A DNA stretch of 64,000 bases from Rhynochetos jubatus. Lineage: Eukaryota; Chordata; Aves; Eurypygiformes; Rhynochetidae. The position numbers and the translations under genes were made by a program. The DNA lies in contig CM050657.1 in NCBI GenBank assembly GCA_027574665.1, positions 13,652,404 to 13,716,403 of the forward strand. Reading direction: 5' to 3'. Below the pieces are notes generated by a model. It did no database searches. It was not told the origin of the DNA and saw only the letters and a list, made by a program, of their open reading frames with translations. Positions 1 through 64,000 of this stretch are shown here, piece by piece. Within the stretch, counting starts at the first letter, position 1; each line of letters starts with the position of its first letter.

Positions 1-34
1 GCCCTGGAGCTGTGGGCTTTCTGGTTCTCCGGAC
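1..34 (+). repeat. Partial monomer at left edge
   Basis: These bases are the last 34 of a monomer (GCCCTGGAGC through TTCTCCGGAC), cut by the window edge. The array therefore continues to the left. Confidence 0.97.
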
Positions 35-35
35 G

Positions 36-67
36 CTAACCCTAAGCGTAACCCTAATTGTTAGGGT
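36..67 (+). repeat. Telomeric cassette type A (CCCTAA pair plus inverted TTAGGG)
   Basis: This is the first example of the commonest telomeric cassette. It has two CCCTAA hexamers separated by a degenerate GCGTAA, then TTG, then TTAGGG facing the other way. Bases 51-67 form an inverted repeat: ACCCTAA, a three-base TTG loop, and TTAGGGT, giving a perfect 7-bp stem. The minus strand reads TTAGGGTTA twice, 12 bases apart. That matches the published duplex recognition consensus YTAGGGTTR of the shelterin proteins TRF1 and TRF2. Whether anything binds here is inference. Confidence 0.92.
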
Positions 68-94
68 GCGCGTTTTCCGGCCCCGGCCCCTCTG
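67..94 (+). repeat. CpG- and GC-rich stretch of the monomer (example)
   Basis: This is unit bases 33-60 of the first monomer. In the consensus it carries GCGCGG, TTTCCGG and CCCCGGCCCC. Together with GCGT in the telomeric cassette and CCGGACGC across the monomer junction, all seven consensus CpGs of a 176-base unit lie in roughly 70 bases. The remaining ~110 bases contain none. Common alleles of this stretch differ at CpGs: CCAGCCCCAGCC, CCGGCCCTGGCC, CCGGCCCAGGCC, CCATCCCCGG, CCGTCCCCGG and TTTCTGG. Most of these are C-to-T changes on one or other strand. Confidence 0.85.
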
Positions 95-113
95 GGTTCT
101 GGCTAGGGAAGGT

Positions 114-210
114 GGGGAGGCAGCAATGTGGGTGCAGTGTTTTGCTCCTCTTGGCAGGCCTTTGCAATGCCAGCTAGCCCTGGAGCTGTGGGCTTTGTGG
201 TTCTCCGGAC
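114..210 (+). repeat. Near-invariant CpG-free core of the monomer (example)
   Basis: This is unit bases 80-176. Across the window this segment is almost unchanged apart from one common two-state site at unit base 113 (GCTCCTC or GCTGCTC) and variants at its last bases (CCGGAC, CCAGAC, CCTGAC). It contains two small dyads: TGGCA, 11 bases, TGCCA (unit 118-138), and CAGCT, 8 bases, AGCTG (unit 137-154). The contrast with the variable first half suggests constraint, a protein-binding role or strong local homogenisation. Sequence alone does not decide between these. Confidence 0.85.
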
Positions 211-280
211 GCTAACCCTAAGCGTAACCCTAATTGTTAGGGTGCGCGGTTTCCGGCCCCGGACCCTCTGGGTTCTGGCT

Positions 281-315
281 AATAAATGTGGGGAGGCAGC
301 AATGTGGGTGCAGTG
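281..315 (+). promoter_or_regulatory. AATAAA allele of the variable segment (possible poly(A) signal)
   Basis: In many monomers the variable segment reads GGCTAATAAAGG, which contains a canonical AATAAA hexamer on the plus strand (281-286 here). About 20-35 bases later comes the conserved G/T-rich run TGTGGGTGCAGTGTTTTG. That spacing resembles the arrangement of a vertebrate cleavage and polyadenylation site. Other alleles at the same place (AGGGAAGG, AGGAAAGG, AGGGCAGG) lack it. No transcription evidence exists in the sequence, so function is only a possibility. Confidence 0.3.
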
Positions 316-1266
316 TTTTGCTCCTCTTGGCAGGCCTTTGCAATGCCAGCTAGCCCTGGAGCTGTGGGCTTTCTGGTTCTCCGGATGCTAGCCCTAACCC
401 TAACCCTAATATTTGACGTGCGCGGTTTCCGGCCCCGGCCCCTGTGGGTTCTGGCTAATAAAGCTGGGGAGGCAGCAATGTGGGTGCAGTGTTTTGCTCC
501 TCTTGGCAGGCCTTTGCAATGCCAGCTAGCCCTGGAGCTGTGGGCTTTCTGGTTCTCCGGACGCTAACCCTAAGCGTAACCCTAATTGTTCGGGTGCGCG
601 GTTTCCGGCCCCGGCCCCTGTGGGTTCTGGCTAGGGAAGGTGGGGAAGCAGCAATGTGGGTGCAGTGTTTTGCTCCTCTTGGCAGGCCTTTGCAATGCCA
701 GCTAGCCCTGGAGCTGTGGGCTTTCTGGTTCTCCGGACGCTAACCCTAAGCGTAACCCTAATTGTTAGGGTGCGCATTTTCCGGTCCCGGCCCGTCTGGG
801 TTCTGGCTAATAAAGGTGGGGAGGCAGCAATGTGGGTGCAGTGTTTTGCTGCTCTTGGCAGGCCTTTGCAATGCCAGCTAGCCCTGGAGCTGTGGGCTTT
901 CTGGTTCTCCGGACGCTAACCCTAAGCGTAACCCTAATTGTTAGGGTGCGCGGTTTCCGGCCCCGGCCCCTCTGGGTTCTGGCTAGGGAAGGTGGGGAGG
1001 CAGCAATGTGGGTGCAGTGTTTTGCTCCTCTTGGCAGGCCTTTGCAATGCCAGCTAGCCCTGGAGCTGTGGGCTTTCTGGTTCTCCGGACGCTAACCCTA
1101 AGCGTAACCCTAATTGTTATCGTCCGCGGTTTCCAGCCCCGGCCCCTCTGGGTTCTGGCTAATACAGGTGGGGAGGCAGCAATGTGGGTGCAGTGTTTTG
1201 CTCCTCTTGGCAGGCCTTTGCAATGCCAGCTAGCCCTGGAGCTGTGGGCTTTCTGGTTCTCCGGAC

Positions 1267-2146
1267 GCTAGCCCTAACCCTAACCCTAATATTTGACGTG
1301 CGCGGTTTCCGGCCCCAGCCCCTCCGGATTCTGGCTAATAAAGCTGGGGAGGCAGCAATGTGGGTGCAGTGTTTTGCTCCTCTTGGCAGGCCTTTGCAAT
1401 GCCAGCTAGCCCTGGAGCTGTGGGCTTTCTGGTTCTCCGGACGCTAACCCTAAGCGTAACCCTAATTGTTAGGGTGCGCATTTTCCGGTCCCGGCCCGTC
1501 TGGGTTCTGGCTAGGGAAGGTGGGGAGGCAGCAATGTGGGTGCAGTGTTTTGCTCCTCTTGGCAGGCCTTTGCAATGCCAGCTAGCCCTGGAGCTGTGGG
1601 CTTTCTGGTTCTCCGGACGCTAACCCTAACCCTAACCCTAATATTTGACGTGCGCGGTTTCCGGCCCCGGCCCCTCTGGATTCTGGCTAATGAAGGTGGG
1701 GATGCAGCAATGTGGGTGCAGTGTTTTGCTCCTCTTGGCAGGCCTTTGCAATGCCAGCTAGCCCTGGAGCTGTGGGCTTTCTGGTTCTCCGGACGCTAGC
1801 CCTAACCCTAACCCTAATATTTGACGTGCGCGGTTTCCGGCCCCAGCCCCTCCGGATTCTGGCTAATAAAGCTGGGGAGGCAGCAATGTGGGTGCAGTGT
1901 TTTGCTCCTCTTGGCAGGCCTTTGCAATGCCAGCTAGCCCTGGAGCTGTGGGCTTTCTGGTTCTCCGGACGCTAACCCTAAGCGTAACCCTAATTGTTAG
2001 GGTGCGCATTTTCCGGTCCCGGCCCGTCTGGGTTCTGGCTAATAAAGGTGGGGAGGCAGCAATGTGGGTGCAGTGTTTTGCTCCTCTTGGCAGGCCTTTG
2101 CAATGCCAGCTAGCCCTGTAGCTGTGGGCTTTGTGGTTCTCCGGAC
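1267..2146 (+). repeat. Local 3-monomer (528-bp) duplication, left zone
   Basis: Monomers at 1267 and 1443 are matched by those at 1795 and 1971, 528 bases away. The shared rare features are GCTAGCCC with three hexamers, CCTCCGGATTCTGG with AATAAAGCTGGGG, and then GCATTTTCCGGTCCCGGCCCG. The second copies of the last type differ in the variable segment (AGGGAAGG against AATAAAGG), so the match is a mosaic. Confidence 0.75.
1619..1657 (+). repeat. Telomeric cassette type B (three perfect CCCTAA hexamers)
   Basis: This is an example of the second cassette. Three CCCTAA hexamers stand in perfect tandem, and the inverted TTAGGG is replaced by ATATTTGACGTGCGCGG. The five bases that separate ATTGTTAGGG from ATATTTGACG change together, and I saw no intermediate haplotype. 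Type B recurs across the window, for example at monomer starts 3027, 4611, 10595, 13059, 23795, 40339 and 44915. A sub-form begins GCTAGCCC (387, 1267, 1795, 2499, 6019, 19219). It probably shows the ancestral telomeric tract before the middle hexamer decayed, but the reverse order is possible. Confidence 0.9.
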
Positions 2147-5100
2147 GCTAACCCTAAGCGTAACCCTAATTGTTAGGGTGCGCGGTTTCCGGCCCCGGCC
2201 CCTCTGGGTTCTGGCTAGGGAAGGTGGGGAGGCAGCAATGTGGGTGCAGTGTTTTGCTCCTCTTGGCAGGCCTTTGCACTGCCAGCTAGCCCTGGAGCTG
2301 TGGGCTTTCTGGTTCTCCGGACGCTAACCCTAAGCGTAACCCTAATTGTTCGGGTGCGCGGTTTCCGGCCCCGGCCCCTCTGGGTTCTGGCTAATACAGG
2401 TGGGGAGGCAGCAATGTGGGTGCAGTGTTTTGCTCCTCTTGGCAGGCCTTTGCAATGCCAGCTAGCCCTGGAGCTGTGGGCTTTCTGGTTCTCCGGACGC
2501 TAGCCCTAACCCTAACCCTAATATTTGACGTGCGCGGTTTCCGGCCCCGGCCCCTGTGGGTTCTGGCTAATAAAGCTGGGGAGGCAGCAATGTGGGTGCA
2601 GTGTTTTGCTCCTCTTGGCAGGCCTTTGCAATGCCAGCTAGCCCTGGAGCTGTGGGCTTTGTGGTTCTCCGGACGCTAACCCTAAGCGTAACCCTAATTG
2701 TTAGGGTGCGCGGTTTCCGGCCCCGGCCCCTGTGGGTTCTGGCTAGGGAAGGTGGGGAGGCAGCAATGTGGGTGCAGTGTTTTGCTCCTCTTGGCAGGCC
2801 TTTGCAATGCCAGCTAGCCCTGGAGCTGTGGGCTTTCTGGTTCTCCGGACGCTAACCCTAAGCGTAACCCTAATTGTTCGGGTGCGCGGTTTCCGGCCCC
2901 GGCCCCTGTGGGTTCTGGCTAGGGAAGGTGGGGAGGCAGCAATGTGGGTGCAGTGTTTTGTTCCTCTTGGCAGGCCTTTGCAATGCCAGCTAGCCCTGGA
3001 GCTGTGGGCTTTCTGGTTCTCCGGACGCTAACCCTAACCCTAACCCTAATATTTGACGTGCGCGGTTTCCGGCCCCGGCCCCTCTGGATTCTGGCTAATG
3101 AAGGTGGGGATGCAGCAATGTGGGTGCAGTGTTTTGCTCCTCTTGGCAGGCCTTTGCAATGCCAGCTAGCCCTGGAGCTGTGGGCTTTCTGGTTCTCCGG
3201 ACGCTAACCCTAAGCGTAACCCTAATTGTTAGGGTGCGCGTTTTCCGGCCCCGGCCCCTCCGGATTCTGGCTAATAAAGCTGGGGAGGCAGCAATGTGGG
3301 TGCAGTGTTTTGCTCCTCTTGGCAGGCCTTTGCAATGCCAGCTAGCCCTGGAGCTGTGGGCTTTCTGGTTCTCCGGACGCTAACCCTAAGCGTAACCCTA
3401 ATTGTTAGGGTGCGCGGTTTCCGGCCCCGGCCCCTCTGGGTTCTGGCTAATAAAGGTGGGGATGCAGCAATGTGTGTGCAGTGTTTTGCTCCTCTTGGCA
3501 GGCCTTTGCAATGCCAGCTAGCCCTGGAGCTGTGGGCTTTCTGGTTCTCCGGACGCTAACCCTAAGCGTAACCCTAATTGTTAGGGTGCGCATTTTCCGG
3601 CCCCGGCCCCCCTGGGTTCTGGCTAATAAAGGTGGGGAGGCAGCAATGTGGGTGCAGTGTTTTGCTCCTCTTGGCAGGCCTTTGCAATGCCAGCTAGCCC
3701 TGGAGCTGTGGGCTTTCTGGTTCTCCGGACGCTAACCCTAAGCGTAACCCTAATTGTTAGGGTGCGCGGTTTCCGGCCCCGGCCCCTCTGCGTTCTGGCT
3801 AGGGAAGGTGGGGAGGCAGCAATGTGGGTGCAGTGTTTTGCTCCTCTTGGCAGGCCTTTGCAATGCCAGCTAGCCCTGGAGCTGTGGGCTTTGTGGTTCT
3901 CCGGACGCTAACCCTAAGCGTAACCCTAATTGTTAGGGTGCACGGTTTCCGGCCCCGGCCCCTCCGGATTCTGGCTAATAAAGCTGGGGAGGCAGCAATG
4001 TGGGTGCAGTGTTTTGCTCCTCTTGGCAGGCCTTTGCAATGCCAGCTAGCCCTGGAGCTGTGGGCTTTGTGGTTCTCCGGACGCTAACCCTAGGCGTAAC
4101 CCTAATTGTTAGGGTGCGCGGTTTCCGGCACAAGCCCCTCTGGGTTCTGGCTAATAAAGGTGGGGAGGCAGCAATGTGGGTGCAGTGTTTTGCTGCTCTT
4201 GGCAGGCCTTTGCAATGCCAGCTAGCCCTGGAGCTGTGGGCTTTCTGGTTCTCCGGACGCTAACCCTAACCCTAACTCTAATATTTGACGTGCTCGGTTT
4301 CCGTCCCCGGCCCCTCTGGATTCTGGCTAGGGAAGGTGGGGAGGCAGCAATGTGGGTGCAGTGTTTTGCTCCTCTTGGCAGGCCTTTGCAATGCCAGCTA
4401 GCCCTGGAGCTGTGGGCTTTCTGGTTCTCCGGACGCTAACCCTAAGCGTAACCCTAATTGTTAGGGTGCGCGGTTTCCGGCCCCGGCCCCTCTGGGTTCT
4501 GGCTAGGGAAGGTGGGGAGGCAGCAATGTGGGTGCAGTGTTTTGCTCCTCTTGGCAGGCCTTTGCAATGCCAGCTAGCCCTGGAGCTGTGGGCTTTCTGG
4601 TTCTCCGGACGCTAACCCTAACCCTAACCCTAATATTTGACGTGCGCGGTTTCCGGCCCCGGCCCCTCTGGATTCTGGCTAATGAAGGTGGCGATGCAGC
4701 AATGTGGGTGCAGTGTTTTGCTCCTCTTGGCAGGCCTTTGCAATGCCAGCTAGCCCTGGAGCTGTGGGCTTTCTGGTTCTCCGGACGCTAACCCTAAGCG
4801 TAACCCTAATTGTTAGGGTGCGCGTTTTCCGGCCCCGGCCCCTGTGGGTTCTGGCTAATAAAGCTGGGGAGGCAGCAATGTGGGTGCAGTGTTTTGCTCC
4901 TCTTGGCAGGCCTTTGCAATGCCAGCTAGCCCTGGAGCTGTGGGCTTTCTGGTTCTCCGGACGCTAACCCTAAGCGTAACCCTAATTGTTCGGGTGCGCG
5001 GTTTCCGGCCCCGGCCCCTGTGGGTTCTGGCTAGGGAAGGTGGGGAGGCAGCAATGTGGGTGCAGTGTTTTGCTCCTCTTGGCAGGCCTTTGCAATGCCA

Positions 5101-7602
5101 GCTAGCCCTGGAGCTGTGGGCTTTCTGGTTCTCCGGACGCTAACCCTAACCCTAACCCTAATATTTGACGTGCGCGGTTTCCGGCCCCGGCCCCTGTGGG
5201 TTCTGGCTAATAAAGGTGGGGAGGCAGCAATGTGGGTGCAGTGTTTTGCTCCTCTTGGCAGGCCTTTGCAATGCCAGCTAGCCCTGGAGCTGTGGGCTTT
5301 CTGGTTCTCCGGACGCTAACCCTAAGCGTAACCCTAATTGTTCGGGTACGCGGTTTCCGGCCCCGGCCAATGTGGGTTCTGGCTAGGGAAGGTGGGGAGG
5401 CAGCAATGTGGGTGCAGTGTTTTGCTCCTCTTGGCAGGCCTTTGCAATGCCAGCTAGCCCTGGAGCTGTGGGCTTTCTGGTTCTCCGGACGCTAACCCTA
5501 AGCGTAACCCTAATTGTTAGGGTGCGCGGTTTCCGGCCCCGGCCCCTCTGCGTTCTGGCTAATACAGGTGGGGAGGCAGCAATGTGGGTGCAGTGTTTTG
5601 CTCCTCTTGGCAGGCCTTTGCAATGCCAGCTAGCCCTGGAGCTGTGGGCTTTCTGGTTCTCCGGACGCTAACCCTAAGCGTAACCCTAATTGTTAGGGTG
5701 CGCGTTTTCCGGCCCCGGCCCCTGTGGGTTCTGGCTAGGGAAGGTGGGGAGGCAGCAATGTGGGTGCAGTGTTTTGCTCCTCTTGGCAGGCCTTTGCAAT
5801 GCCAGCTAGCCCTGGAGCTGTGGGCTTTGTGGTTCTCCGGACGCTAACCCTAAGCGTAACCCTAATTGTTAGGGTGCGCGGTTTCCGGCCCCGGACCCTC
5901 TGGGTTCTGGCTAATAAATGTGGGGAGGCAGCAATGTGGGTGCAGTGTTTTGCTCCTCTTGGCAGGCCTTTGCAATGCCAGCTAGCCCTGGAGCTGTGGG
6001 CTTTCTGGTTCTCCGGACGCTAGCCCTAACCCTAACCCTAATATTTGACGTGCGCGGTTTCCGGCCCCGGCCCCTCTGGGTTCTGGCTAATACAGGTGGG
6101 GAGGCAGCAATGTGGGTGCAGTGTTTTGCTCCTCTTGGCAGGCCTTTGCAATGCCAGCTAGCCCTGGAGCTGTGGGCTTTGTGGTTCTCCGGACGCTAAC
6201 CCTAGGCGTAACCCTAATTGTTAGGGTGCGCGGTTTCCGGCACCAGCCCCTCTGGGTTCTGGCTAATAAAGGTGGGGAGGCAGCAATGTGGGTGCAGTGT
6301 TTTGCTGCTCTTGGCAGGCCTTTGCAATGCCAGCTAGCCCTGGAGCTGTGGGCTTTCTGGTTCTCCGGACGCTAACCCTAAGCGTAACCCTAATTGTTAG
6401 GGTGCGCGGTTTCCGCCCCCGGCCCCTCTGGGTTCTGGCTAGGGAAGGTGGGGAGGCAGCAATGTGGGTGCAGTGTTTTGCTCCTCTTGGCAGGCCTTTG
6501 CAATGCCAGCTAGCCCTGGAGCTGTGGGCTTTGTGGTTCTCCGGACGCTAACCCTAAGCGTAACCCTAATTGTTAGGGTGCGCGGTTTCCGGCCCCGGCC
6601 CCTCTGGGTTCTGGCTAGGGAAGGTGGGGAGGCAGCAATGTGGGTGCAGTGTTTTGCTCCTCTTGGCAGGCCTTTGCAATGCCAGCTAGCCCTGGAGCTG
6701 TGGGCTTTCTTGTTCTCCGGACGCTAACCCTAGGCGTAACCCTAATTGTTCGGGTGCGCGGTTTCCGGCCCCGGCCCCTGTGGGTTCTGGCTAATAAAGG
6801 TGGGGAGGCAGCAATGTGGGTGCAGTGTTTTGCTCCTCTTGGCAGGCCTTTGCAATGCCAGCTAGCCCTGGAGCTGTGGGCTTTCTGGTTCTCCGGACGC
6901 TAACCCTAAGCGTAACCCTAATATTTGACGTGCGCGGTTTCCGGCCCCGGCCCCTCTGGGTTCTGGCTAGGGAAGGTGGGGAGGCAGCAATGTGGGTGCA
7001 GTGTTTTGCTCCTCTTGGCAGGCCTTTGCAATGCCAGCTAGCCCTGGAGCTGTGGGCTTTCTGGTTCTCCGGACGCTAACCCTAAGCGTAACCCTAATTG
7101 TTAGCGTCCGCGGTTTCCGGCCCCGGCCCCTCTGGGTTCTGGCTAATACAGGTGGGGAGGCAGCAATGTGGGTGCAGTGTTTTGCTCCTCTTGGCAGGCC
7201 TTTGCAATGCCAGCTAGCCCTGGAGCTGTGGGCTTTCTGGTTCTCCGGACGCTAACCCTAAGCGTAACCCTAATTGTTAGGGTGCGCGGTTTCCGGCCCT
7301 GGCCCCTGTGGGTTCTGGCTAGGGAAGGTGGGGAGGCAGCAATGTGGGTGCAGTGTTTTGCTCCTCTTGGCAGGCCTTTGCAATGCCAGCTAGCCCTGGA
7401 GCTGTGGGCTTTCTGGTTCTCCGGACGCTAACCCTAATCGTAACCCTAATTGTTAGCGTCCGCGGTTTCCGGCCCCGGCCCCTGTGGGTTCTGGCTAATA
7501 AAGCTGGGGAGGCAGCAATGTGGGTGCAGTGTTTTGCTCCTCTTGGCAGGCCTTTGCAATGCCAGCTAGCCCTGGAGCTGTGGGCTTTCTGGTTCTCCGG
7601 AC

Positions 7603-8306
7603 GCTATCCCTAAGCATAACCCTAATTGTTAGGGTGCGCGGTTTCCGGCCCCGGCCCCTCTGGGTTCTGGCTAATGAAGGTGGGGATGCAGCAATGTGGG
7701 TGCAGTGTTTTGCTCCTCTTGGCAGGCCTTTGCAATGCCAGCTAGCCCTGGAGCTGTGGGCTTTCTGGTTCTCCGGACGCTAACCCTAAGCGTAACCCTA
7801 ATTGTTAGGGTGCTCGGTTTCCGGCCCCGGCCCCTCTGGGTTCTGGCTAGGGAAGGTGGGGAGGCAGCAATGTGGGTGCAGTGTTTTGCTCCTCTTGGCA
7901 GGCCTTTGCAATGCCAGCTAGCCCTGGAGCTGTGGGCTTTCTGGTTCTCCGGACGCTAACCCTAAGCGTAACCCTAATTGTTAGGGTGCGCGGTTTCCGG
8001 CCCCGGCCCCTCTGGGTTCTGGCTAGGGAAGGTGGGGAGGCAGCAATGTGGGTGCAGTGTTTTGCTCCTCTTGGCAGGCCTTTGCAATGCCATCTTGCCC
8101 TGGAGCTGTGGGCTTTCTGGTTCTCCGGACGCTAACCCTAAGCGTAACCCTAATTGTTAGGGTGCGCGGTTTCCGGCCCCGGCCCCTCTGGGTTCTGGCT
8201 AATAAATGTGGGGAGGCAGCAATGTGGGTGCAGTGTTTTGCTTCTCTTGGCAGGCCTTTGCAATGCCAGCTAGCCCTGGAGCTGTGGGCTTTCTGGTTCT
8301 CCGGAC
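7603..8306 (+). repeat. Four-monomer block, copy 1 (12-monomer spacing)
   Basis: Four successive monomers carry the rare markers GCTATCCC (7603), GGGGATGCAGC (about 7683), GGTGCTCGG (about 7811) and GCCATCTTGCCC (about 8090). The same markers, in the same order, recur exactly 2,112 bases (12 monomers) later from 9715. The intervening eight monomers are different, so this is a spaced duplicate or the remains of a 12-mer HOR. Confidence 0.85.
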
Positions 8307-9714
8307 GCTAAACCTAAGCGTAACCCTAATTGTTAGGGTGCGCGGTTTCCGGCCCCGGCCCCTCTGGGTTCTGGCTAATAAATGTGGGGAGGCAGCAATG
8401 TGGGTGCAGTGTTTTGCTCCTCTTGGCAGGCCTTTGCAATGCCAGCTAGCCCTGGAGCTGTGGGCTTTGTGGTTCTCCGGACGCTAACCCTAAGCGTAAC
8501 CCTAATATTTGACGTGCGCGGTTTCCGGCCCCGGCCCCTCCGGATTCTGGCTAATAAAGCTGGGGAGGCAGCAATGTGGGTGCAGTGTTTTGCTCCTCTT
8601 GGCAGGCCTTTGCAATGCCAGCTAGCCCTGGAGCTGTGGGCTTTCTGGTTCTCCGGACGCTAACCCTAAGCGTAACCCTAATATTTGACGTGCGCGGTTT
8701 CCGGCCCCGGCCCCTCTGGGTTCTGGCTAGGGAAGGTGGGGAGGCAGCAATGTGGGTGCAGTGTTTTGCTCCTCTTGGCAGGCCTTTGCAATGCCAGCTA
8801 GCCCTGGAGCTGTGGGCTTTCTGGTTCTCCGGACGCTAACCCTAAGCGTAACCCTAATTGTTCGGGTGCGCGGTTTCCGGCCCCGGCCCCTGTGGGTTCT
8901 GGCTAGGGAAGGTGGGGAGGCAGCAATGTGGGTGCAGTGTTTTGTTCCTCTTGGCAGGCCTTTGCAATGCCAGCTAGCCCTGGAGCTGTGGGCTTTCTGG
9001 TTCTCCGGACGCTAACCCTAAGCGTAACCCTAATTGTTCGGGTGCGCGGTTTCCGGCCCCGGCCCCTCTGGGTTCTGGCTAATACAGGTGGGGAGGCAGC
9101 AATGTGGGTGCAGTGTTTTGCTCCTCTTGGCAGGCCTTTGCAATGCCAGCTAGCCCTGGAGCTGTGGGCTTTCTGGTTCTCCGGACGCTAACCCTAAGCG
9201 TAACCCTAATTGTTAGCGTCCGCGGTTTCCGGCCCCGGCCCCTCTGGGTTCTGGCTAATACAGGTGGGGAGGCAGCAATGTGGGTGCAGTGTTTTGCTCC
9301 TCTTGGCAGGCCTTTGCAATGCCAGCTAGCCCTGGAGCTGTGGGCTTTCTGGTTCTCCGGACGCTAACCCTAAGCGTAACCCTAATTGTTAGGGTGCGCG
9401 GTTTCCGGCCCCGGCCCCTCTGGGTTCTGGCTTGGAAAGGTGGGGAGGCAGCAATGTGGGTGCAGTGTTTTGCTCCTCTTGGCAGGCCTTTGCAATGCCA
9501 GCTAGCCCTGGAGCTGTGGGCTTTCTGGTTCTCCGGACACTAACCCTAAGCCTAACCCTAATTGTTAGGGTGCGCGTTTTCCGGCCCCGGCCCCTCTGGG
9601 TTCTGGCTAGGGAAGGTGGGGAGGCAGCAATGTGGGTGCAGTGTTTTGCTCCTCTTGGCAGGCCTTTGCAATGCCAGCTAGCCCTGGAGCTGTGGGCTTT
9701 CTGGTTCTCCGGAC

Positions 9715-10418
9715 GCTATCCCTAAGCGTAACCCTAATTGTTAGGGTGCGCGGTTTCCGGCCCCGGCCCCTCTGGGTTCTGGCTAATGAAGGTGGGGATG
9801 CAGCAATGTGGGTGCAGTGTTTTGCTCCTCTTGGCAGGCCTTTGCAATGCCAGCTAGCCCTGGAGCTGTGGGCTTTCTGGTTCTCCGGACGCTAACCCTA
9901 AGCGTAACCCTAATTGTTAGGGTGCTCGGTTTCCGGCCCCGGCCCCTCTGGGTTCTGGCTAGGGAAGGTGGGGAGGCAGCAATGTGGGTGCAGTGTTTTG
10001 CTCCTCTTGGCAGGCCTTTGCAATGCCAGCTAGCCCTGGAGCTGTGGGCTTTCTGGTTCTCCGGACGCTAACCCTAAGCGTAACCCTAATCGTTAGGGTG
10101 CGCGGTTTCCGGCCCCGGCCCCTCTGGGTTCTGGCTAGGGAAGGTGGGGAGGCAGCAATGTGGGTGCAGTGTTTTGCTCCTCTTGGCAGGCCTTTGCAAT
10201 GCCATCTTGCCCTGGAGCTGTGGGCTTTCTGGTTCTCCGGACGCTAACCCTAAGCGTAACCCTAATTGTTAGGGTGCGCGGTTTCCGGCCCCGGCCCCTC
10301 TGGGTTCTGGCTAATAAATGTGGGGAGGCAGCAATGTGGGTGCAGTGTTTTGCTCCTCTTGGCAGGCCTTTGCAATGCCAGCTAGCCCTGGAGCTGTGGG
10401 CTTTCTGGTTCTCCGGAC
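9715..10418 (+). repeat. Four-monomer block, copy 2
   Basis: This is the second copy of the block at 7603-8306, with the same four markers at +2,112. It differs in small ways: copy 1 has AAGCATAACC in its first monomer where this copy keeps AAGCGTAACC, and this copy has a private CCCTAATCGTTAGGG at about 10086. Confidence 0.85.
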
Positions 10419-10594
10419 ACTAACCCTAAGCGTAACCCTAATTGTTAGGGTGCGCGGTTTCCGGCCCTGGCCCCTCTGGGTTCTGGCTAGGGAAGGTGGG
10501 GAGGCAGCAATGTGGGTGCAGTGTTTTGCTCCTCTTGGCAGGCCTTTGCAATGCCAGCTAGCCCTGGAGCTGTGGGCTTTCTGGTTCTCCGTAC

Positions 10595-13058
10595 GCTAAC
10601 CCTAACCCTAACCCTAATATTTGACGTGCGCGGTTTCCGGCCCCGGCCCCTCTGGGTTCTGGCTAATAAAGCTGGGGAGGCAGCAATGTGGGTGCAGTGT
10701 TTTGCTCCTCTTGGCAGGCCTTTGCAATGCCAGCTAGCCCTGGAGCTGTGGGCTTTCTGGTTCTCCGGACGCTAACCCTAACCCTAACCCTAATATTTGA
10801 CGTGCGCGGTTTCCGGCCCCGTCCCCTCTGGGTTCTGGCTAGGAAAGGTGGGGAGGCAGCAATGTGGGTGCAGTGTTTTGCTCCTCTTGGCAGGCCTTTG
10901 CAATGCCAGCTAGCCCTGGAGCTGTGGGCTTTCTAGTTCTCCGGACGCTAACCCTAAGCATAACCCTAATTGTTAGGGTGCGCGTTTTCCGGCCCCGGCC
11001 CCTGTGGGTTCTGGCTAATAAATTTGGGGAGGCAGCAATGTGGGTGCAGTGTTTTGATCCTCTTGGCAGGCCTTTGCAATGCCAGCTAGCCCTGGAGCTG
11101 TGGGCTTTCTGGTTCTCCGGACGCTAACCCTAAGCGTAACCCTAATATTTGACGTGCGCGGTTTCCGGCCCCGGCCCGTCTGGGTTCTGGCTAGGGAAGG
11201 TGGGGAGGCAGCAATGTGGGTGCAGTGTTTTGCTCCTCTTGGCAGGCCTTTGCAATGCCAGCTAGCCCTGGAGCTGTGGGCTTTCTGGTTCTCCGGACGC
11301 TAACCCTAAGCGTAACCCTAATTGTTAGGGTGCGCGGTTTCCAGACCCGGCCCCTTTGGGTTCAGGCTAATAAAGTTGGGGAGGCAGCAATGTGGGTGCA
11401 GTGTTTTGATCCTCTTGGCAGGCCTTTGCAATGCCAGCTAGCCCTGGAGCTGTGGGCTTTCTGGTTCTCCGGACGCTAACCCTAAGCGTAACCCTAATAT
11501 TTGACGTGCGCGGTTTCCGGCCCCGGCCCGTCTGGGTTCTGGCTAGGGAAGGTGGGGAGGCAGCATTGTGGGTGCAGTGTTTTGCTCCTCTTGGCAGGCC
11601 TTTGCAATGCCAGCTAGCCCTGGAGCTGTGGGCTTTCAGGTTCTCCGGACGCTAACCCTAAGCGTAACCCTAATTGTTAGGGTGCGCGGTTTCCAGACCC
11701 GGCCCCTTTGGGTTCAGGCTAATAAAGTTGGGGAGGCAGCAATGTGGGTGCAGTGTTTTGCTCCTCTTGGCGGGCCTTTGCAATGCCAGCTAGCCCTGGA
11801 GCTGTGGGCTTTCTGGTTCTCCGGACGCTAACCCTAAGCGTAACCCTAATGTTTGACGTGCGCGGTTTCCGGCCCTTGCCCCTGTGGGTTCTGGCTAGGA
11901 AAGGTGGGGAGGCAGCAATGTGGGTGCAGTGTTTTGCTCCTCTTGGCAGGCCTTTGCAATGCCAGCTAGCCCTGGAGCTGTGGGCTTTCTGGTTCTCCGG
12001 ACGCTAAACCTAGGCGTAACCCTAATTGTTAGGGTGCGCGGTTTCCGGCCCCGGCCCCTCTGGGTTCTGGCTAATAAAGGTGGGGAGGCAGCAATGTGGG
12101 TGCAGTGTTTTGCTCGTCTTGGCAGGCCTTTGCAATGCCAGCTAGCCCTGGAGCTGTGGGCTTTCTGGTTCTCCGGACGCTAACCCTAAGCGTAACCCTA
12201 ATTGTTAGGGTGCGCGGTTTCCGGCCCCGGCCCGTCTGGGTTCTGGCTAGGGAAGGTGGGGAGGCAGCAATGTGGGTGCAGTGTTTTGCTCCTCTTGGCA
12301 GGCCTTTGCAATGCCAGCTAGCCCTGGAGCTGTGGGCTTTCTGGTTCTCCGGACGCTAACCCTAAGCGTAACCCTAATGTTTGACGTGCGCGGTTTTCGG
12401 CCCTGGCCCCTCTGGGTTCTGGCTAGGAAAGGTGGGGAGGCAGCAATGTGGGTGCAGTGTTTTGCTCCTCTTGGCAGGCCTTTGCAATGCCAGCTAGCCC
12501 TGGAGCTGTGGGCTTTCTGGTTCTCCGGACGCTAACCCTAAGCGTAACCCTAATTGTTAGGGTGCGCGGTTTCCGGCCCCGGCCCCTGTAGGTTCTGGTT
12601 AATAAAGGTGGGGAGGCAGCAATGTGGGTGCAGTGTTTTGCTCCTCTTGGCAGGCCTTTGCAATGCCAGCTAGCCCTGGAGCTGTGGGCTTTCTGGTTCT
12701 CCGGATGCTAACCCTAAGCGTAACCCTAATTGTTAGGGTGCGCGGTTTCCGGCCCCGGCCCCTCTGGGTTCTGGCTAATAAAGGTGGGGAGGTAGCAATG
12801 TGGGTGCAGTGTTTTGCTCCTCTTGGCAGGCCTTTGCAATGCCAGCTAGCCCTGGAGCTGTGGGCTTTCTGGTTCTCCGGACTCTAACCCTAAGCGTAAC
12901 CCTAATATTTGACGTGCGCGGTTTCCGTCCCCGGCCCCTGTGGGTTCTGGCTAGGAAAGGTGGGGAGGCAGCAATGTGGGTGCAGTGTTTTGCTGCTCTT
13001 GGCAGGCCTTTGCAATGCCAGCTAGCCCTGGAGCTGTGGGCTTTCTGGTTCTCCGGAC
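10595..13058 (+). repeat. Transition zone with dimeric and 3-mer substructure
   Basis: Between the left zone and the type-C-rich zone lie two type B monomers (10595 and 10771), a 352-bp dimer (listed separately), and a pair of monomers 528 bases apart (11827 and 12355). That pair shares the otherwise absent CCCTAATGTTTGACG cassette with a CTAGGAAAGG allele. Two monomers end their cassette at CTAAACC or have GTAGGTTCTGGTTAATAAAGG-type substitutions (about 12588-12605), which appear private. Confidence 0.75.
11123..11826 (+). repeat. 352-bp dimer repeated twice
   Basis: Two consecutive dimers are visible. The first monomer of each (11123, 11475) has ATATTTGACG with a GGCCCGTCTGGG stretch and AGGGAAGG. 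The second (11299, 11651) has the unusual CCAGACCCGGCCCCTTTGGG followed by TTCAGGCTAATAAAGTTGG. The copies differ by few bases, for example GCAATGTGG against GCATTGTGG at about 11566 and GATCCTC against GCTCCTC. This looks like a recent two-monomer duplication. Confidence 0.88.
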
Positions 13059-13234
13059 GCTAACCCTAACCCTAACCCTAATATTTGACGTGCGCGGTTT
13101 CCGGCCCGGGCCCCTGTGGGTTCTGGCTAGGGAAGGTGGGGAGGCAGCAATGTGGGTGCAGTGTTTTGCTCCTCTTGGCAGGCCTTTGCAATGCCAGCTA
13201 GCCCTGCAGCTGTGGGCTTTCTGGTTCTCCGGAC

Positions 13235-13273
13235 GCTAACCCTAGGCGTAACCCTAATATTTGACGTGCGCGG
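13235..13273 (+). repeat. Telomeric cassette type C (CCCTAGGCGTAACCCTAA)
   Basis: In this form the first hexamer reads CCCTAG instead of CCCTAA, the middle hexamer is the degenerate GCGTAA, and the ATATTTGACG haplotype follows. Type C is rare before 13 kb (a related form with ATTGTTAGGG stands at 4083, 6195 and 6723) and common afterwards. On the minus strand the altered hexamer reads CTAGGGTTA, which still satisfies YTAGGGTTR. Confidence 0.88.
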
Positions 13274-16066
13274 TTTCCGGCCCCGGCCCCTCTGGGTTCT
13301 GGCTAATAAAGGTGGGGAGGTAGCAATGTGGGTGCAGTGTTTTGCTCCTCTTGGCAGGCCTTTGCAATGCCAGCTAGCCCTGGAGCTGTGGGCTTTCTGG
13401 TTCTCCGGACGCTAACCCTAAGCGTAAGCCTAATATTTGACGTGCCCGGTTTCCGTCCCAGGCCCCTGTGGGTTCTGGCTAGGAAAGGTGGGGAGGCAGC
13501 AATGTGGGTGCAGTGTTTTGCTGCTCTTGGCAGGCCTTTGCAATGCCAGCTAGCCCTGGAGCTGTGGGCTTTCTGGTTCTCCGGACGCTAACCCTAGGCG
13601 TAACCCTAATTGTTAGGGTGCGCGGTTTCCGGCCCCGGCCCCTGTGGGTTCTGGGTAGGGAAGGTGGGGAGGCAGCAATGTGGGTGCAGTGTTTTGCTGC
13701 TCTTGGCAGGCCTTTGCAATGCCAGCTAGCCCTGGAGCTGTGGGCTTTCTGGTTCTCCGGACGCTAACCCTAGGCGTAACCCTAATATTTCACGTGCGCG
13801 GTTTCTGGCCCCGGCCCCTGTGGGTTCTGGCTAATAAAGGTGGGGAGGCAGCAATGTGGGTGCAGTGTTTTGCTCCTCTTGGCAGGCCTTTGCAATGCCA
13901 GCTAGCCCTGGAGCTGTGGGCTTTCTGGTTCTCCGGACGCTAACCCTAAGCGTAACCCTAATTGTTAGGGTGCGCGGTTTCCGGCCCCGGCCCCTCTGGG
14001 TTCTGGCTAATAAAGGTGGGGAGGTAGCAATGTGGGTGCAGTGTTTTGCTCCTCTTGGCAGGCCTTTGCAATGCCAGCTAGCCCTGGAGCTGTGGGCTTT
14101 CTGGTTCTCCGGACGCTAACCCTAGACGTAACCCTAATATTTCACGTGCGCGGTTTCCGTCCCCGGCCCCTCTGGGTTCTGGCTAGGAAAGGTGGGGAGG
14201 CAGCAATGTGGGTGCAGTGTTTTGCTCCTCTTGGCAGGCCTTTGCAATGCCAGCTAGCCCTGGAGCTGTGGGCTTTCTGGTTCTCCGGACGCTAACCCTA
14301 GGCGTAACCCTAATATTTGACGTGCGCGGTTTCCGGCCCCGGCCCCTGTGGGTTCTGGCTAATAAAGGTGGGGAGGCAGCAATGTGGGTGCAGTGTTTTG
14401 CTCCTCTTGGCAGGCCTTTGCAATGCCAGCTAGCCCTGGAGCTGTGGGCTTTCTGGTTCTCCGGACGCTAACCCTAAGCGTAACCCTAATATTTGACGTG
14501 CGCGGTTTCCGGCCCCGGCCCCTCTGGGTTCTGGCTAATAAAGGTGGGGAGGCAGCAATGTGGGTGCAGTGTTTTGCTCCTCTTGGCAGGCCTTTGCAAT
14601 GCCAGCTAGTCCTGGAGCTGTGGGCTTTCTGGTTCTCCGGACGCTAACCCTAAGCGTAACCCTAATATTTGACGTGCGCGGTTTCCGGCCCTGGCCCCTC
14701 TCGGTTCTGGCTAGGAAAGGTGGGGAGGCAGCAATGTGGGTGCAGTGTTTTGCTCCTCTTGGCAGGCCTTTGCAATGCCAGCTAGCCCTGGAGCTGTGGG
14801 CTTTCTGGTTCTCCGGACGCTAACCCTAGGCGTAACCCTAATATTTGACGTACGCGGTTTCCGGCCCCGGCCCCCCTGGGTTCTGGCTAGGGAAGGTGGG
14901 GAGGCAGCAATGTGGGTGCAGTGTTTTGTTCCTCTTGGCAGGCCTTTGCAATGCCAGCTAGCCCTGGAGATGTGGGCTTTCTGGTTCTCCGGACGCTAAC
15001 CCTAAGCGTAACCCTAATATTTAACGTGTGCGGTTTCCGTCCCTGGCCCCTGTGGGTTCTGGCTAGGGAAGGTGGGGAGGCAGCAATGTGGGTGCAGTGT
15101 TTTGCTCCTCTTGGCAGGCCTTTGCAATGCCAGCTAGCCCTGGAGCTGTGGGCTTTCTGGTTCTCCGGACGCTAACCCTAAGCGTAACCCTAATTGTTAG
15201 GGTGCGCGGTTTCCGGCCCCGGCCCCTCTGGGTTCTGGATAGGGAAGGTGGGGAGGCAGCAATGTGGGTGCAGTGTTTTGCTGCTCTTGGCAGGCCTTTG
15301 CAATGCCAGCTAGCCCTGGAGCTGTGGGCTTTCTGGTTCTCCGGACGCTAACCCTAAGCGTAACCCTAATATTTGACGTGCGCGGTTTCCGGCCCCGGCC
15401 CCTGTGGGTTCTGGCTAGGAAAGGTGGGGAGGCAGCAATGTGGGTGCAGTGTTTTGCTCCTCTTGGCAGGCCTTTGCAATGCCAGCTAGCCCTGGAGCTG
15501 TGGGCTTTCTGGTTCTCCGGACGCTAACCCTAAGCGTAACGCTAATATTTGACGTGCGCGGTTTCCGGCCCCGGCCCCCCTGGGTTCTGGCTAATAAAGG
15601 TGGGAAGGCAGCAATGTGGGTGCAGTGTTTTGCTGCTCTTGGCAGGCCTTTGCAATGCCAGCTAGCCCTGGAGCTGTGGGCTTTCTGGTTCTCCGGACGC
15701 TAACCCTAAGCGTAACCCTAATTGTTAGGGTGCGCGGTTTCCGGCCCCAGCCCCCCTGGGTTCTTGCTAGGGAAGGTGGTGAGGCAGCAATGTGGGTGCA
15801 GTGTTTTGCTGCTCTTGGCAGGCCTTTGCAATGCCAGCTAGCCCTGGAGCTGTGGGCTTTCTGGTTCTCCAGACGCTAACCCTAAGCGTAACCCTAATTG
15901 TTAGGGTGCGCGGTTTCCGTCCCCGGCCCCTGTGGGTTCTGGCTAGGGAAGGTGGGGAGGCAGCAATGTGGGTGCAGTGTTTTGCTCCTCTTGGCAGGCC
16001 TTTGCAATGCCAGCTAGCCCTGGAGCTGTGGGCTTTCTGGTTCTCCGGACGCTAACCCTAAGCGTA

Positions 16067-16083
16067 ACCCTAACTGTTAGGGT
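16067..16083. other. 17-nt near-perfect telomeric palindrome (ACCCTAACTGTTAGGGT)
   Basis: A single T-to-C change in the type A cassette turns the hairpin into ACCCTAAC, T, GTTAGGGT: an 8-bp stem around a single central base. The same form occurs at 34899-34915, 35427-35443 and 38419-38435, in related monomers. Its spread follows the block in which it sits, so it is not independent evidence of selection. Confidence 0.85.
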
Positions 16084-57057: not shown

Positions 57058-57233
57058 GCTAACCCTAAGCGTAACCCTAATATTTGACGTGCGCGGTTTC
57101 CGGCCCCGGCCCCTGTGGGTTCTGGCTAATAAAGGTGGGGAGGCAGCAATGTGGGTGCAGTGTTTTGCTGCTCTTGGCAGGCCTTTGCAATGCCAGCTAG
57201 CCCTGGAGCTGTGGGCTTTCTGGTTCTCCGGAC

Positions 57234-60200: not shown

Positions 60201-63200
60201 CTGTGGGCTTTCTGGTTCTCCGGACGCTAACCCTAAGCGTAACCCTAATATTTGACGTGCGCGGTTTCCGGCCCCGGCCCCCCTGGGTTCTGGCTAATAA
60301 AGGTGGGGAGGCAGCAATGTGGGTGCAGTGTTTTGCTGCTCTTGGCAGGCCTTTGCAATGCCAGCTAGCCCTGGAGCTGTGGGCTTTCTGGTTCTCCGGA
60401 CGCTAACCCTAAGCCTAACCCTAATATTTGACGTGCGCGGTTTCCGGCCCCGGCCCCTCTGGGTTCTGGCTAGGAAAGGTGGGGAGGCAGCAATGTGGGT
60501 GCAGTGTTTTGCTCCTCTTGGCAGGCCTTTGCAATGCCAGCTAGCCCTGGAGCTGTGGGCTTTCTGGTTCTCCGGACGCTAACCCTAGGCGTAACCCTAA
60601 TTGTTAGGGTGCGCGGTTTCCGGCCCCGGCCCCCCTGGGTTCTGGATAATAAAGGTGGGGAGGCAGCAATGTGGGTGCAGTGTTTTGCTCCTTTTGGCAG
60701 GCCTTTGCAATGCCAGCTAGCCCTGGAGCTGTGGGCTTTCTGGTTCTCCGGACGCTAACCCTAAGCGTAACCCTAATTGTTAGGGTGCGCGGTTTCCGGC
60801 CCCGGCCCCTGTGGGTTCTGGCTAATAAAGGTGGGGAGGCAGCAATGTGGGTGCAGTGTTTTGTTCCTCTTGGCAGGCCTTTGCAATGCCAGCTAGCCCT
60901 GGAGCTGTGGGCTTTCTGGTTCTCCGGACGCTAACCCTAAGCGTAACCCTAATTGTTAGGGTGCGTGGTTTCCGGCCCCGGCCCCCCTGGGTTCTGGCTA
61001 ATAAAGGTGGGGAGGCAGCAATGTGGGTGCAGTGTTTTGCTCCTCTTGGCAGGCCTTTGCAATGCCAGCTAGCCCTGGAGCTGTGGGCTTTCTGGTTCTC
61101 CGGACGCTAACCCTAGGCGTAACCCTAATTGTTCGGGTGCGCGGTTTCCGGCCCCGGCCCCTGTGGGTTCTGGCTAATAAAGGTGGGGAGGCAGCAATGT
61201 GGGTGCAGTGTTTTGTTCCTCTTGGCAGGCCTTTGCAATGCCAGCTAGCCCTGGAGCTGTGGGCTTTCTGGTTCTCCGGACGCTAACCCTAAGCGTAACC
61301 CTAATTGTTAGGGTGCGTGGTTTCCGGCCCCGGCCCCTGTGGGTTCTGGCTAGGGAAGGTGGGGAGGCAGCAATGTGGGTGCAGTGTTTTGCTCCTCTTG
61401 GCAGGCCTTTGCAATGCCAGCTAGCCCTGGAGCTGTGGGCTTTCTGGTTCTCCTGACGCTAACCCTAAGCGTAACCCTAATATTTGACGTGCGCGGTTTC
61501 CGGCCCCGGCCCCCCTGGGTTCTGGCTAATAAAGGTGGGGAGGCAGCAATGTGGGTGCAGTGTTTTGCTGCTCTTGGCAGGCCTTTGCAATGCCAGCTAG
61601 CCCTGGAGCTGTGGGCTTTCTGGTTCTCCGGACGCTAACCCTAAGCGTAACCCTAATATTTGACGTGCGCGGTTTCCGGCCCCGGCCCCCCTGGGTTCTG
61701 GCTAATAAAGGTGGGGAGGCAGCAATGTGGGTGCAGTGTTTTGCTGCTCTTGGCAGGCCTTTGCAATGCCAGCTAGCCCTGGAGCTGTGGGCTTTCTGGT
61801 TCTCCTGACGCTAACCCTAAGCCTAACCCTAATATTTGACGTGCGCGGTTTCCGGCCCCGGCCCCTCTGGGTTCTGGCTAGGAAAGGTGGGGAGGCAGCA
61901 ATGTGGGTGCAGTGTTTTGCTCCTCTTGGCAGGCCTTTGCAATGCCAGCTAGCCCTGGAGCTGTGGGCTTTCTGGTTCTCCGGACGCTAACCCTAGGCGT
62001 AACCCTAATTGTTAGGGTGCGCGGTTTCCGGCCCCGGCCCCCCTGGGTTCTGGCTAGGAAAGGTGGGGAGGCAGCAATGTGGGTGCAGTGTTTTGCTCCT
62101 TTTGGCAGGCCTTTGCAATGCCAGCTAGCCCTGGAGCTGTGGGCTTTCTGGTTCTCCGGACGCTAACCCTAAGCGTAACCCTAATTGTTAGGGTGCGCGG
62201 TTTCCGGCCCCGGCCCCTGTGGGTTCTGGCTAGGGAAGGTGGGGAGGCAGCAATGTGGGTGCAGTGTTTTGCTCCTCTTGGCAGGCCTTTGCAATGCCAG
62301 CTAGCCCTGGAGCTGTGGGCTTTCTGGTTCTCCGGACGCTAACCCTAAGCGTAACCCTAATTGTTAGGGTGCGTGGTTTCCGTCCCCAGCCCCTCTGGGT
62401 TCTGGCTAGGGAAGGTGGGGAGGCAGCAATGTGGGTGCAGTGTTTTGCTGCTCTTGGCAGGCCTTTGCAAAGCCAGCTACCCCTGGAGCTGTGGGCTTTC
62501 TGGTTCTCCGGACGCTAACCCTAAGCGTAACCCTAATATTTGACGTGCGCGGTTTCCGGCCCCGGCCCCTGTGGGTTCTGGCTAATAAAGGTGGGGAGGC
62601 AGCAATGTGGGTGCAGTGTTTTGCTGCTCTTGGCAGGCCTTTGCAATGCCAGCTAGCCCTGGAGCTGTGGGCTTTCTGGTTCTCCGGACGCTAACCCTAG
62701 GCGTAACCCTAATTGTTCGGGTGCGCGGTTTCCGGCCCCGGCCCCCCTGGGTTCTGGCTAATAAAGGTGGGGAGGCAGCAATGTGGGTGCAGTGTTTTGC
62801 TCCTTTTGGCAGGCCTTTGCAATGCCAGCTAGCCCTGGAGCTGTGGGCTTTCTGGTTCTCCGGACGCTAACCCTAGGCGTAACCCTAATATTTGACGTGC
62901 GCGGTTTCCGGCCCCGGCCCCCCTGGGTTCTGGCTAGGAAAGGTGGGGAGGCAGCAATGTGGGTGCAGTGTTTTGCTGCTCTTGGCAGGCCTTTGCAATG
63001 CCAGCTAGCCCTGGAGCTGTGGGCTTTCTGGTTCTCCGGACGCTAACCCTAAGCGTAACCCTAATTGTTAGCGTCCGCGGTTTCCGGCCCCGGCCCCTGT
63101 GGGTTCTGGCTAGGGAAGGTGGGGAGGCAGCAATGTGGGTGCAGTGTTTTGCTCCTCTTGGCAGGCCTTTGCAATGCCAGCTAGCCCTGGAGCTGTGGGC

Positions 63201-64000
63201 TTTCTGGTTCTCCGGACGCTAACCCTAAGCGTAACCCTAATTGTTAGGGTGCGCGGTTTCCGGCCCCGGCCCCCCTGGGTTCTGGCTAATAAAGGTGGGG
63301 AGGCAGCAATGTGGGTGCAGTGTTTTGCTGCTCTTGGCAGGCCTTTGCAATGCCAGCTAGCCCTGGAGCTGTGGGCTTTCTGGTTCTCCTGACGCTAACC
63401 CTAAGCCTAACCCTAATATTTGACGTGCGCGGTTTCCGGCCCCGGCCCCTCTGGGTTCTGGCTAGGAAAGGTGGGGAGGCAGCAATGTGGGTGCAGTGTT
63501 TTGCTCCTCTTGGCAGGCCTTTGCAATGCCAGCTAGCCCTGGAGCTGTGGGCTTTCTGGTTCTCCGGACGCTAACCCTAGGCGTAACCCTAATTGTTAGG
63601 GTGCGCGGTTTCCGGCCCCGGCCCCCCTGGGTTCTGGATAATAAAGGTGGGGAGGCAGCAATGTGGGTGCAGTGTTTTGCTCCTTTTGGCAGGCCTTTGC
63701 AATGCCAGCTAGCCCTGGAGCTGTGGGCTTTCTGGTTCTCCGGACGCTAACCCTAAGCGTAACCCTAATTGTTAGGGTGCGTGGTTTCCGGCCCCGGCCC
63801 CTGTGGGTTCTGGCTAGGGAAGGTGGGGAGGCAGCAATGTGGGTGCAGTGTTTTGCTCCTCTTGGCAGGCCTTTGCAATGCCAGCTACCCCTGGAGCTGT
63901 GGGCTTTCTGGTTCTCCGGACGCTAACCCTAAGCGTAACCCTAATATTTGACGTGCGCGGTTTCCGGCCCCGGCCCCTGTGGGTTCTGGCTAATAAAGGT
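57234..64000 (+). repeat. Right zone, rearranged paralogue of the 30.8-39 kb region
   Basis: Markers otherwise confined to 30.8-39 kb reappear here: GGGTTGGAAAGG (about 58708), CCGGCCGCGGCC with GTGTGTTCTGTC (about 58860), GAGCTTTGGGC (about 59671), CTAGGGCAGG, CTAGGCCTAACC (about 59881), CCAGACCCAGCCC, CCTGACGC, GGATAATAAAGG and GCTCCTTTTGGC. Whole monomers are missing relative to the left-hand version. A local series (three monomers from 60402) recurs at about +1,408 and +2,992, with increasing substitution. AGCCATGTGG (57322 and 58202) and CAAAGCCAGCTACCCC (about 62468) are private. Confidence 0.82.
63922..64000 (+). repeat. Partial monomer at right edge
   Basis: These are the first 79 bases of a monomer with the ATATTTGACG cassette and the CTAATAAAGG allele, cut by the window edge. 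The array therefore continues to the right. Confidence 0.97.

Follow-up and report, generated by a model that had tools for sequence, protein, structure and literature searches.

A 176-bp satellite with telomeric hexamers in its monomer, probably (peri)centromeric, in the Rhynochetos jubatus genome

The stretch considered here, called the window throughout, comprises 64,000 nucleotides of the Rhynochetos jubatus genome (assembly GCA_027574665.1, contig CM050657.1, forward strand). The contig that holds it is designated C12 and the window is C12:13652404-13716403. It is filled from end to end by one tandem array of a satellite whose 176-bp unit carries a short tract of the telomeric hexamer CCCTAA. 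This array is referred to as subfamily A; related subfamilies, B and C, occur on other contigs.

Array and monomer structure

Tandem Repeats Finder reports a single array spanning positions 1-64000, with a period of 176, 363.6 copies and 94% matches. Cutting at a conserved anchor, in a register that begins with AGCCCTGGAG, yields 362 complete monomers, 361 of them exactly 176 bp long from anchor to anchor; the remaining unit, of 175 bp, was left out of position-by-position counts. A preliminary description made from the letters alone had proposed a 176-bp satellite filling the stretch, and this is borne out. The features to which the text refers are as follows.

1 to 64,000, no strand assigned: subfamily A array, unbroken tandem of the 176-bp unit (single Tandem Repeats Finder row and genome placement)
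176 to 351, plus strand: example monomer, in the register starting with AGCCCTGGAG
206 to 262, no strand assigned: 57-bp block, consensus positions 31-87, which includes the telomeric tract and every one of the 7 consensus CpGs (consensus CpG count)
210 to 233, plus strand: in the example monomer, the worn (CCCTAA)4 tract CGCTAACCCTAAGCGTAACCCTAA, with 3 mismatches; variants of it recur every 176 bp (subfamily comparison)
237 to 242, minus strand: inverted TTAGGG, 3 bp past the tract, in the arrangement CCCTAA-TTG-TTAGGG; TTAGGG occurs in 207 of the 362 monomers (hexamer count)
392 to 409, plus strand: perfect (CCCTAA)3 run, at its first occurrence in the window; monomers of this class number 34 of 362 (hexamer count)
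32,758 to 35,420, plus strand: longest exact internal duplication, 2663 bp, with its second copy at 36278-38940, 20 monomers away (exact-repeat search)
47,344 to 47,518, plus strand: the sole 175-bp monomer among the 362 (anchor cutting)

Mean pairwise identity among the window monomers is 95%, and the 362 units comprise 202 distinct sequences. Ninety of the 176 monomer positions are invariant; common variation lies mostly at positions 46-109, plus site 148. Directly after the tract, two linked haplotypes are found, TTGTTAGGG and TATTTGACG. At monomer positions 60-66, the two alternative 7-bp forms, TG..AGG and AT..GAC, have five differing sites in strong linkage (r2 0.76-0.99), which points to conversion-type replacement rather than to mutation site by site.

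Series of identical monomers reappear in the same order along the array: 14 monomers at a distance of 20, 11 at 21, 10 at 23 and 7 at 21, while three permutations of monomer order gave no run above 2. There are 12 exact repeats of at least 700 bp, whose copies stand 7 to 42 monomers apart (20-23 for the four longest). These recurrent runs and long exact repeats point to exchange or duplication of multi-monomer blocks and not to a fixed higher-order repeat.

All the CpGs of the subfamily A consensus fall within the 57-bp block. The remaining 119 bp hold 0 against 10 expected, none of 20,000 mononucleotide shuffles was without CpG, and a CpG-free arc of such length arises with P 0.005 when seven CpGs are placed at random. 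This contrast was considered as proof of a two-part origin of the unit and was dropped, the consensuses of subfamilies B and C having CpGs elsewhere in the unit.

The window holds no long reading frame, the maximum being 129 amino acids from stop to stop. Rfam gave no family at gathering score in positions 1-20000, and in positions 1-1056 only a single chance lncRNA match (E 2.4) far under that score; no tRNA was found in 1-5000. Neither internal sub-repeats nor further telomeric hexamers outside the tract exceed shuffled sequence, and the single-strand folding of one monomer is ordinary (z -0.22). Collections of prokaryotic, phage, plasmid and viral sequence gave no match to one 28-base pattern or to the first 528 window bases, as expected of animal DNA. 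A long, homogenised, head-to-tail, non-coding array, present in high copy and on multiple chromosomes, is satellite DNA.

Telomeric hexamers within the unit

The plus strand of the window contains 702 CCCTAA and 208 TTAGGG. Counted on both strands, the 910 hexamers compare with 86.2 +/- 9.4 expected from 100 dinucleotide shuffles, and the earlier estimate of 700-900 was close. At least one CCCTAA is present in 362 of 362 monomers, as had been claimed for every unit. The further statement that each unit has two or three of them describes 302 monomers (268 with two, 34 with three) and fails for the 60 with one. The idea of one fixed orientation has to be given up: 207 monomers hold both orientations within the same unit, most commonly as CCCTAA-TTG-TTAGGG. 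When monomers are grouped by their numbers of CCCTAA and TTAGGG, the classes are 193 with two and one, 75 with two and none, 46 with one and none, 34 with three and none, and 14 with one each. Contiguous runs reach a maximum of three hexamers, and there are 34 such runs.

The three subfamily consensuses carry the tract in the same register, as CGCTAACCCTAAGCGTAACCCTAA in A, CCCTAACCCTAACCCTAACCCTAG in B and CGCTAACCCTAGCCCTAACCCTAA in C. These differ from (CCCTAA)4 at 3, 1 and 2 positions, respectively, as compared with 12 or more mismatches anywhere else in the unit. By this alignment, the consensus unit reads as one 24-bp (CCCTAA)4 tract, with three changed bases in subfamily A. The string CCCTAACCCTAACCCTA is present in 21 of 23 sampled subfamily B monomers.

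Outside the window, 474 monomers were sampled from 10 contigs (units outside 150-200 bp excluded). The site YAACCCTAR, which we take to be the consensus site of telomere proteins, is retained in 472 of them, in agreement with the earlier proposal that each amplified unit includes hexamers of its own; they are no relic of a fusion. Five of the 474 are 170 or 171 bp long, one hexamer length short, and one of 164 bp is two hexamer lengths short; in all of these the loss sits at the tract. Units of 174, 175 and 177 bp reflect other changes or the unit length of subfamily B. Units of 170 bp also occur in a stretch of C12 that holds intact hexamer runs, and the near-constant unit length in the window may be owed to a middle hexamer that is mostly broken. 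Near the left edge of the array on C8 (C8:25874325-25877860), spacings of the exact core of 170 and 182 bp were seen, one hexamer less and more than 176.

Genome placement, subfamilies and copy number

The assembly comprises 1,331,379,947 bases in 148 contigs. The largest measure 148.6, 135.8, 126.0, 79.2, 77.5, 63.6, 43.5 and 42.6 Mb, the smallest a few Mb and less, and the small contigs are GC-rich, a profile of avian appearance. The array that includes the window lies in the interior of C12 and is about 1.6-1.8 Mb long. It is regular from the sample at 12.5 Mb onwards (only a 63-bp fragment was found at 12.3 Mb), and keeps a single orientation at every sampled array point between 12.5 and 14.1 Mb. 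Its end, at about 14.102 Mb, is sharp and comes a few bases past a hexamer tract, where unique GC-rich DNA adjoins. The preliminary figure of at least 64 kb was thus correct as a lower limit, 64 kb being only the edge of the window. From C12:14102126 onward, a CpG-rich and possibly genic region abuts the array without a transition zone. A second subfamily A array lies in the interior of C8, from 25.872 Mb to 28.24-28.27 Mb of 42.6 Mb, in the reverse of the C12 orientation and uniform at all sampled points. Where extent could be judged, on C8 and C12, the large blocks are therefore of megabase scale.

Related sequence is present on C11, C13, C16, C19-C24, C27 and C28, as well as on the smaller contigs C55, C122, C125 and C144, so that at least 13 chromosome-sized contigs carry the family. 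The sites are inside the contig on C11, C13, C16, C24 and C27 and near contig ends on C19-C23 and C28; those on C16 and C24 were placed from two places each. On C19, satellite is found 50 kb from each end in the same strand, unlike the other sampled end arrays, which may reflect a scaffolding error or two arrays.

Subfamily A occurs on C8 and C12, subfamily B on C11, C13, C16, C19-C24, C27 and C28, and subfamily C on C13, C20, C22 and C28. Their consensuses were built from 54 (A), 16 (B) and 23 (C) monomers, with units outside 150-200 bp again excluded; the input included every 12th monomer of the window (31) and every 5th of one other sampled piece (12). Identity is 84.7% between A and B, 84.7% between B and C, and 79.0% between A and C.

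Exact-motif counts over the assembly were 35,566 for the A core, 40,203 for the four-hexamer motif of B and 25,868 for the C motif, with 0 for each reversed control. Summed, on the assumption that no unit holds two motifs, these are 101,637 units, or about 18 Mb and 1.3% of the assembly; only exact matches being counted, this is a lower bound. A broader B core pattern gave 54,957 matches. Among the matches listed, isolated B-core copies, one to three together, also lie outside large arrays on C2-C8.

The seven largest contigs, C1-C7, showed no bulk array, and C1 has no place among the matches listed for any motif. In contig order, the listed A matches begin on C8, the B matches on C11 and the C matches on C13, from which the exact motifs are taken to be absent from C1-C7. 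Samples taken 50 kb in from both ends of C2-C7, C11, C13-C18 and C24 held no satellite. Absence at sampled points is weak evidence, because a 20-point grid on C11 was empty and yet C11 carries the satellite.

Several other repeats were seen in passing. C20 starts with about 3.8 kb (1-3789) of a very GC-rich tandem repeat with a unit of about 22 bp, and the same unit appears by eye, on the reverse strand, at the start of the piece sampled from the small contig C70. Between this repeat and the satellite, C20 3790-6170 consists of degenerate short units that alternate AAATT and TTCTCC; units of this type are visible by eye at the starts of C24 and C25 too. They bear a possible likeness to the avian 41-bp repeats of CNM/PO41 type. 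C12 starts with a 79-bp tandem repeat (Tandem Repeats Finder), and a piece 50 kb into C16 is similar by eye; this may be a subterminal repeat.

Origin and placement of the satellite, and known systems

The reading that we favour, with a probability of roughly 0.6, is that of a lineage-specific satellite, probably centromeric or pericentromeric, in which a telomeric tract taken up by the founding unit has since been carried along as the unit was amplified. The founding unit would have gained a short tract of about four CCCTAA hexamers beside non-telomeric DNA, after which the entire unit would have multiplied and moved from one chromosome to another. Divergence into subfamilies A, B and C would have followed, the tract staying near-perfect in B, with occasional loss of whole hexamers, and being broken by point changes in A and C. 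The array in the window would have been homogenised by exchange or duplication of multi-monomer blocks, leaving exact copies that reach 2.7 kb, with offsets of 20-23 units for the four longest. One capture of four hexamers followed by wear and slippage is the simplest history suggested by the three consensus tracts, in which capture is the probable origin and the hexamers would be passengers.

Judged from position and arrangement, the satellite is most likely centromeric or pericentromeric DNA of medium and small chromosomes, a role that remains putative. On C13, subfamily C occupies 8.329-8.336 Mb and subfamily B follows from 8.338 Mb (to at least 8.369 Mb among the matches listed); beyond lie six scattered C copies and then dense C again from 9.830 Mb, 1.5 Mb on. 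At the sampled points of C20 and C22, subfamily C is again outside and B inside, which makes three contigs with this order. The succession on C13 of outer C, inner B and C again, at the places seen, resembles the layering of centromeres, in which older flanks surround a younger core. Large blocks that are interior on some contigs and adjacent to the end on others also count for the centromeric reading. The largest contigs, on which no bulk array came to light, fit it as well, because most chicken macrochromosomes use other repeats, as far as described in PMC9974502.

Several observations weigh against a centromeric role. The relative age of B and C is deduced from position only. There is not always one site per chromosome: C19 has satellite near both ends, and C11 has copies close to 8.8 Mb and again close to 13.8 Mb, but 10.0, 11.7 and 13.4 Mb gave none. 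Several arrays lie near contig ends in a subterminal-like position (on C20 from 6 kb onwards, elsewhere as sampled at 50 kb). C14, C15, C17, C18, C25, C26 and C29-C36 gave no match at sampled points or among the matches listed, and a centromere satellite common to all smaller chromosomes is accordingly not established. No strict higher-order repeat was found in the window, where identity is nearly flat with lag; the lag effects are weak, being lower at lag 1 (z -3.2), higher at lags 2, 5, 7 and 11 (z 3.2 to 4.4) and at z 1.8 for lag 3. The CENP-B box motif is optional for centromeric satellites; none was found within 1 mismatch in the window, and the best match in each subfamily consensus has 3 of 9 mismatches.

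The end-adjacent arrays allow a different account, in which a subterminal satellite, of the sort found beside chromosome ends in apes and marmosets, grew beside telomeres and took up hexamers there, the interior copies on C8, C11-C13, C16, C24 and C27 arriving through inversions, fusions or transfers. We consider this improbable, if still credible. Arrays do lie close to contig ends on C19-C23 and C28, and the hexamer strand is that expected of the telomere at that end in six of seven sampled terminal arrays (C20L, C22L, C19R, C21R, C23R and C28R, and not C19L), a match with binomial P 0.06 (for six or more of seven) in which the telomeres themselves are not seen. Set against these are the arrays on C8, C11, C12, C13, C16, C24 and C27, which are not confined to chromosome ends unless they were later moved, the single orientation of the large interior arrays at sampled points, and the many contigs (C2-C7, C11, C13-C18, C24) with no copy 50 kb from either end. 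End position in itself cannot separate subterminal from centromeric DNA, because most avian microchromosome centromeres are at chromosome ends, the chromosomes being acrocentric, according to the parts of PMC9974502 and PMC7787181 that describe them.

Internal telomeric repeats of vertebrates are often explained as scars of fusion or seen as blocks of hexamers, and the hexamers described here do lie in contig interiors. It is nevertheless extremely improbable that they stem from a telomere-telomere fusion or form an ordinary interstitial telomeric block. The large block of a heterochromatic interstitial telomeric sequence (het-ITS) is absent from the window, with at most three contiguous hexamers across 64 kb, and each unit joins its hexamers to about 150 bp of other DNA. 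The inverted hexamers read CCCTAA and then TTAGGG, the reverse of the orientation at a telomere fusion junction, and the array has one orientation at the sampled points. Copying of the unit from telomerase RNA is scarcely to be expected either. Such insertions beside telomerase RNA sequence (TERC-ITS) accompany break repair in vertebrates, as outlined in PMC8537989. Rfam includes vertebrate telomerase RNA, and besides the negative Rfam result in positions 1-20000, no telomerase RNA match was found in 1-1056 at E up to 5. Long satellites are difficult to assemble, and array lengths could still be wrong. An assembly artefact such as a collapsed or falsely expanded repeat is very improbable, given the 202 different monomers among 362, the rare variants, the block duplications of several sizes, and the presence of the same family, in different subfamilies, on many contigs.

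A functional account would have pairs of YAACCCTAR sites, 12 bp apart in subfamily A, recruit TRF1/TRF2 or other shelterin parts, with selection keeping the sites; we hold it to be doubtful. Its support comes from regularity. The window monomers have exactly two sites in 320 of 362 cases, three in 28, one in 14 and none in 0, and retention outside the window is nearly complete, as given above. The inner 8-mers CTAACCCTA and TAACCCTA are unchanged across all subfamily consensuses, and when the paired 8-mers are rotated no more than 3 of 176 positions score as well, against which stands the fact that the 8-bp width was picked after the alignment was seen. The second site is well conserved in the window, with 14 of 176 rotations better. 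Taken as full 9-bp sites, however, 35 of 176 rotations do equally well across subfamilies. Within the window, 76 of 176 rotations are better conserved than the site pair and 109 of 176 better than the first site alone, the last base of which varies between A and G, both allowed. Columns invariant between subfamilies make up 16 of 18 in the sites and 101 of 142 elsewhere (Fisher P 0.09). Differences in the 24-bp tract as against the rest number 4/24 versus 23/136 (P 1.0), 3/24 versus 34/136 (P 0.29) and 3/24 versus 24/136 (P 0.77). None of the tests for selection on the complete hexamer sites reached significance, whether by window rotations, subfamily columns or tract against rest, and selection on the telomeric tract is not shown. 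That an intact site pair in each unit can bind telomere proteins is a weaker, secondary prediction.

The boldest form of this idea, that a vertebrate has built telomere-protein sites into a centromeric satellite, with about 100,000 units bearing predicted paired shelterin sites on medium and small chromosomes, we regard as quite unlikely. If it were true, centromere behaviour (clustering, cohesion or drive) would include shelterin recruitment, and in chicken the (TTAGGG)n of the centromere cores would represent the same phenomenon in a different form. Under the favoured reading of a captured and amplified tract, the striking point is not the 64-kb extent but the constancy, on many chromosomes, of a telomeric tract within the unit of a family that is putatively centromeric. 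At least three subfamilies, differing by 15-21% and spread over many chromosomes, offer a multi-copy natural system for asking whether telomere proteins act at centromeres. On a practical note, telomere fluorescence in situ hybridisation (FISH) and telomere-length assays based on probes or read counts may, in this species, include signal from internal DNA, chiefly that of subfamily B.

With respect to novelty, strings of 16-21 bases from seven monomer stretches, five of them in both strands, occur nowhere in the literature searched, which would miss sequences shown in figures and did not extend to Dfam or Repbase. The suggestion that the satellite may be undescribed therefore stands within that limited scope: the sequence is not found in the literature searched, while built-in telomeric hexamers are already known in plants.

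Lineage-specific vertebrate satellites near 171 bp are frequent, and 94% of 3,429 families are confined to a single species in the survey of PMC13320880. Among avian centromeric satellites, the anseriform APL-HaeIII unit of 190 bp and the parrot unit of 191 bp are similar in length; the portions of PMC7787181 and PMC8854603 that describe them mention no telomeric hexamers, and the comparison is by description only. In duck, where microchromosomes are acrocentric, APL-HaeIII was used to place centromeres (PMC7787181). Also by description, FA-SAT of cat is a GC-rich satellite at telomeres and some centromeres (PMC6379292) and MarmoSAT of marmoset a subterminal unit of about 171 bp (PMC13041921), with hexamers not described for either in the parts of those sources consulted.

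Closer likenesses are found where telomeric repeats enter centromere arrays. In chicken, the centromere cores of seven chromosomes are (TTAGGG)n within 41-bp CNM arrays; the likeness is that acrocentric centromeres by chromosome ends hold telomeric repeats inside their repeat arrays, most of the largest chromosomes using other repeats (PMC9974502). There, (TTAGGG)n is embedded in a 41-bp array and CENP-A has been mapped (PMC9974502), whereas here the hexamers lie inside each 176-bp monomer and are known from sequence alone. Ec6 of the brown lemur likewise puts the telomeric repeat to use in centromere arrays, in the form of TTAGGG arrays averaging 6.22 Mb with immuno-FISH support in a related species (PMC13228423), in contrast to the composite monomer described here.

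The closest described design that was found is PaB6 of the plant Prospero autumnale, a high-copy pericentromeric satellite in which TTAGGG units are integral to the monomer and with which a telomere probe co-localises (PMC4273535). The preliminary contrast between this satellite and the pure hexamer blocks usual for interstitial telomeric DNA was thus drawn too strongly. By description in the same source, the PaB6 monomer is 249 bp long with seven dispersed hexamers, whereas the unit here is about 176 bp, has one four-hexamer tract and exists in several subfamilies. As in PaB6, what is amplified includes the hexamers, and almost all monomers have them, a likeness of kind and not of ancestry.

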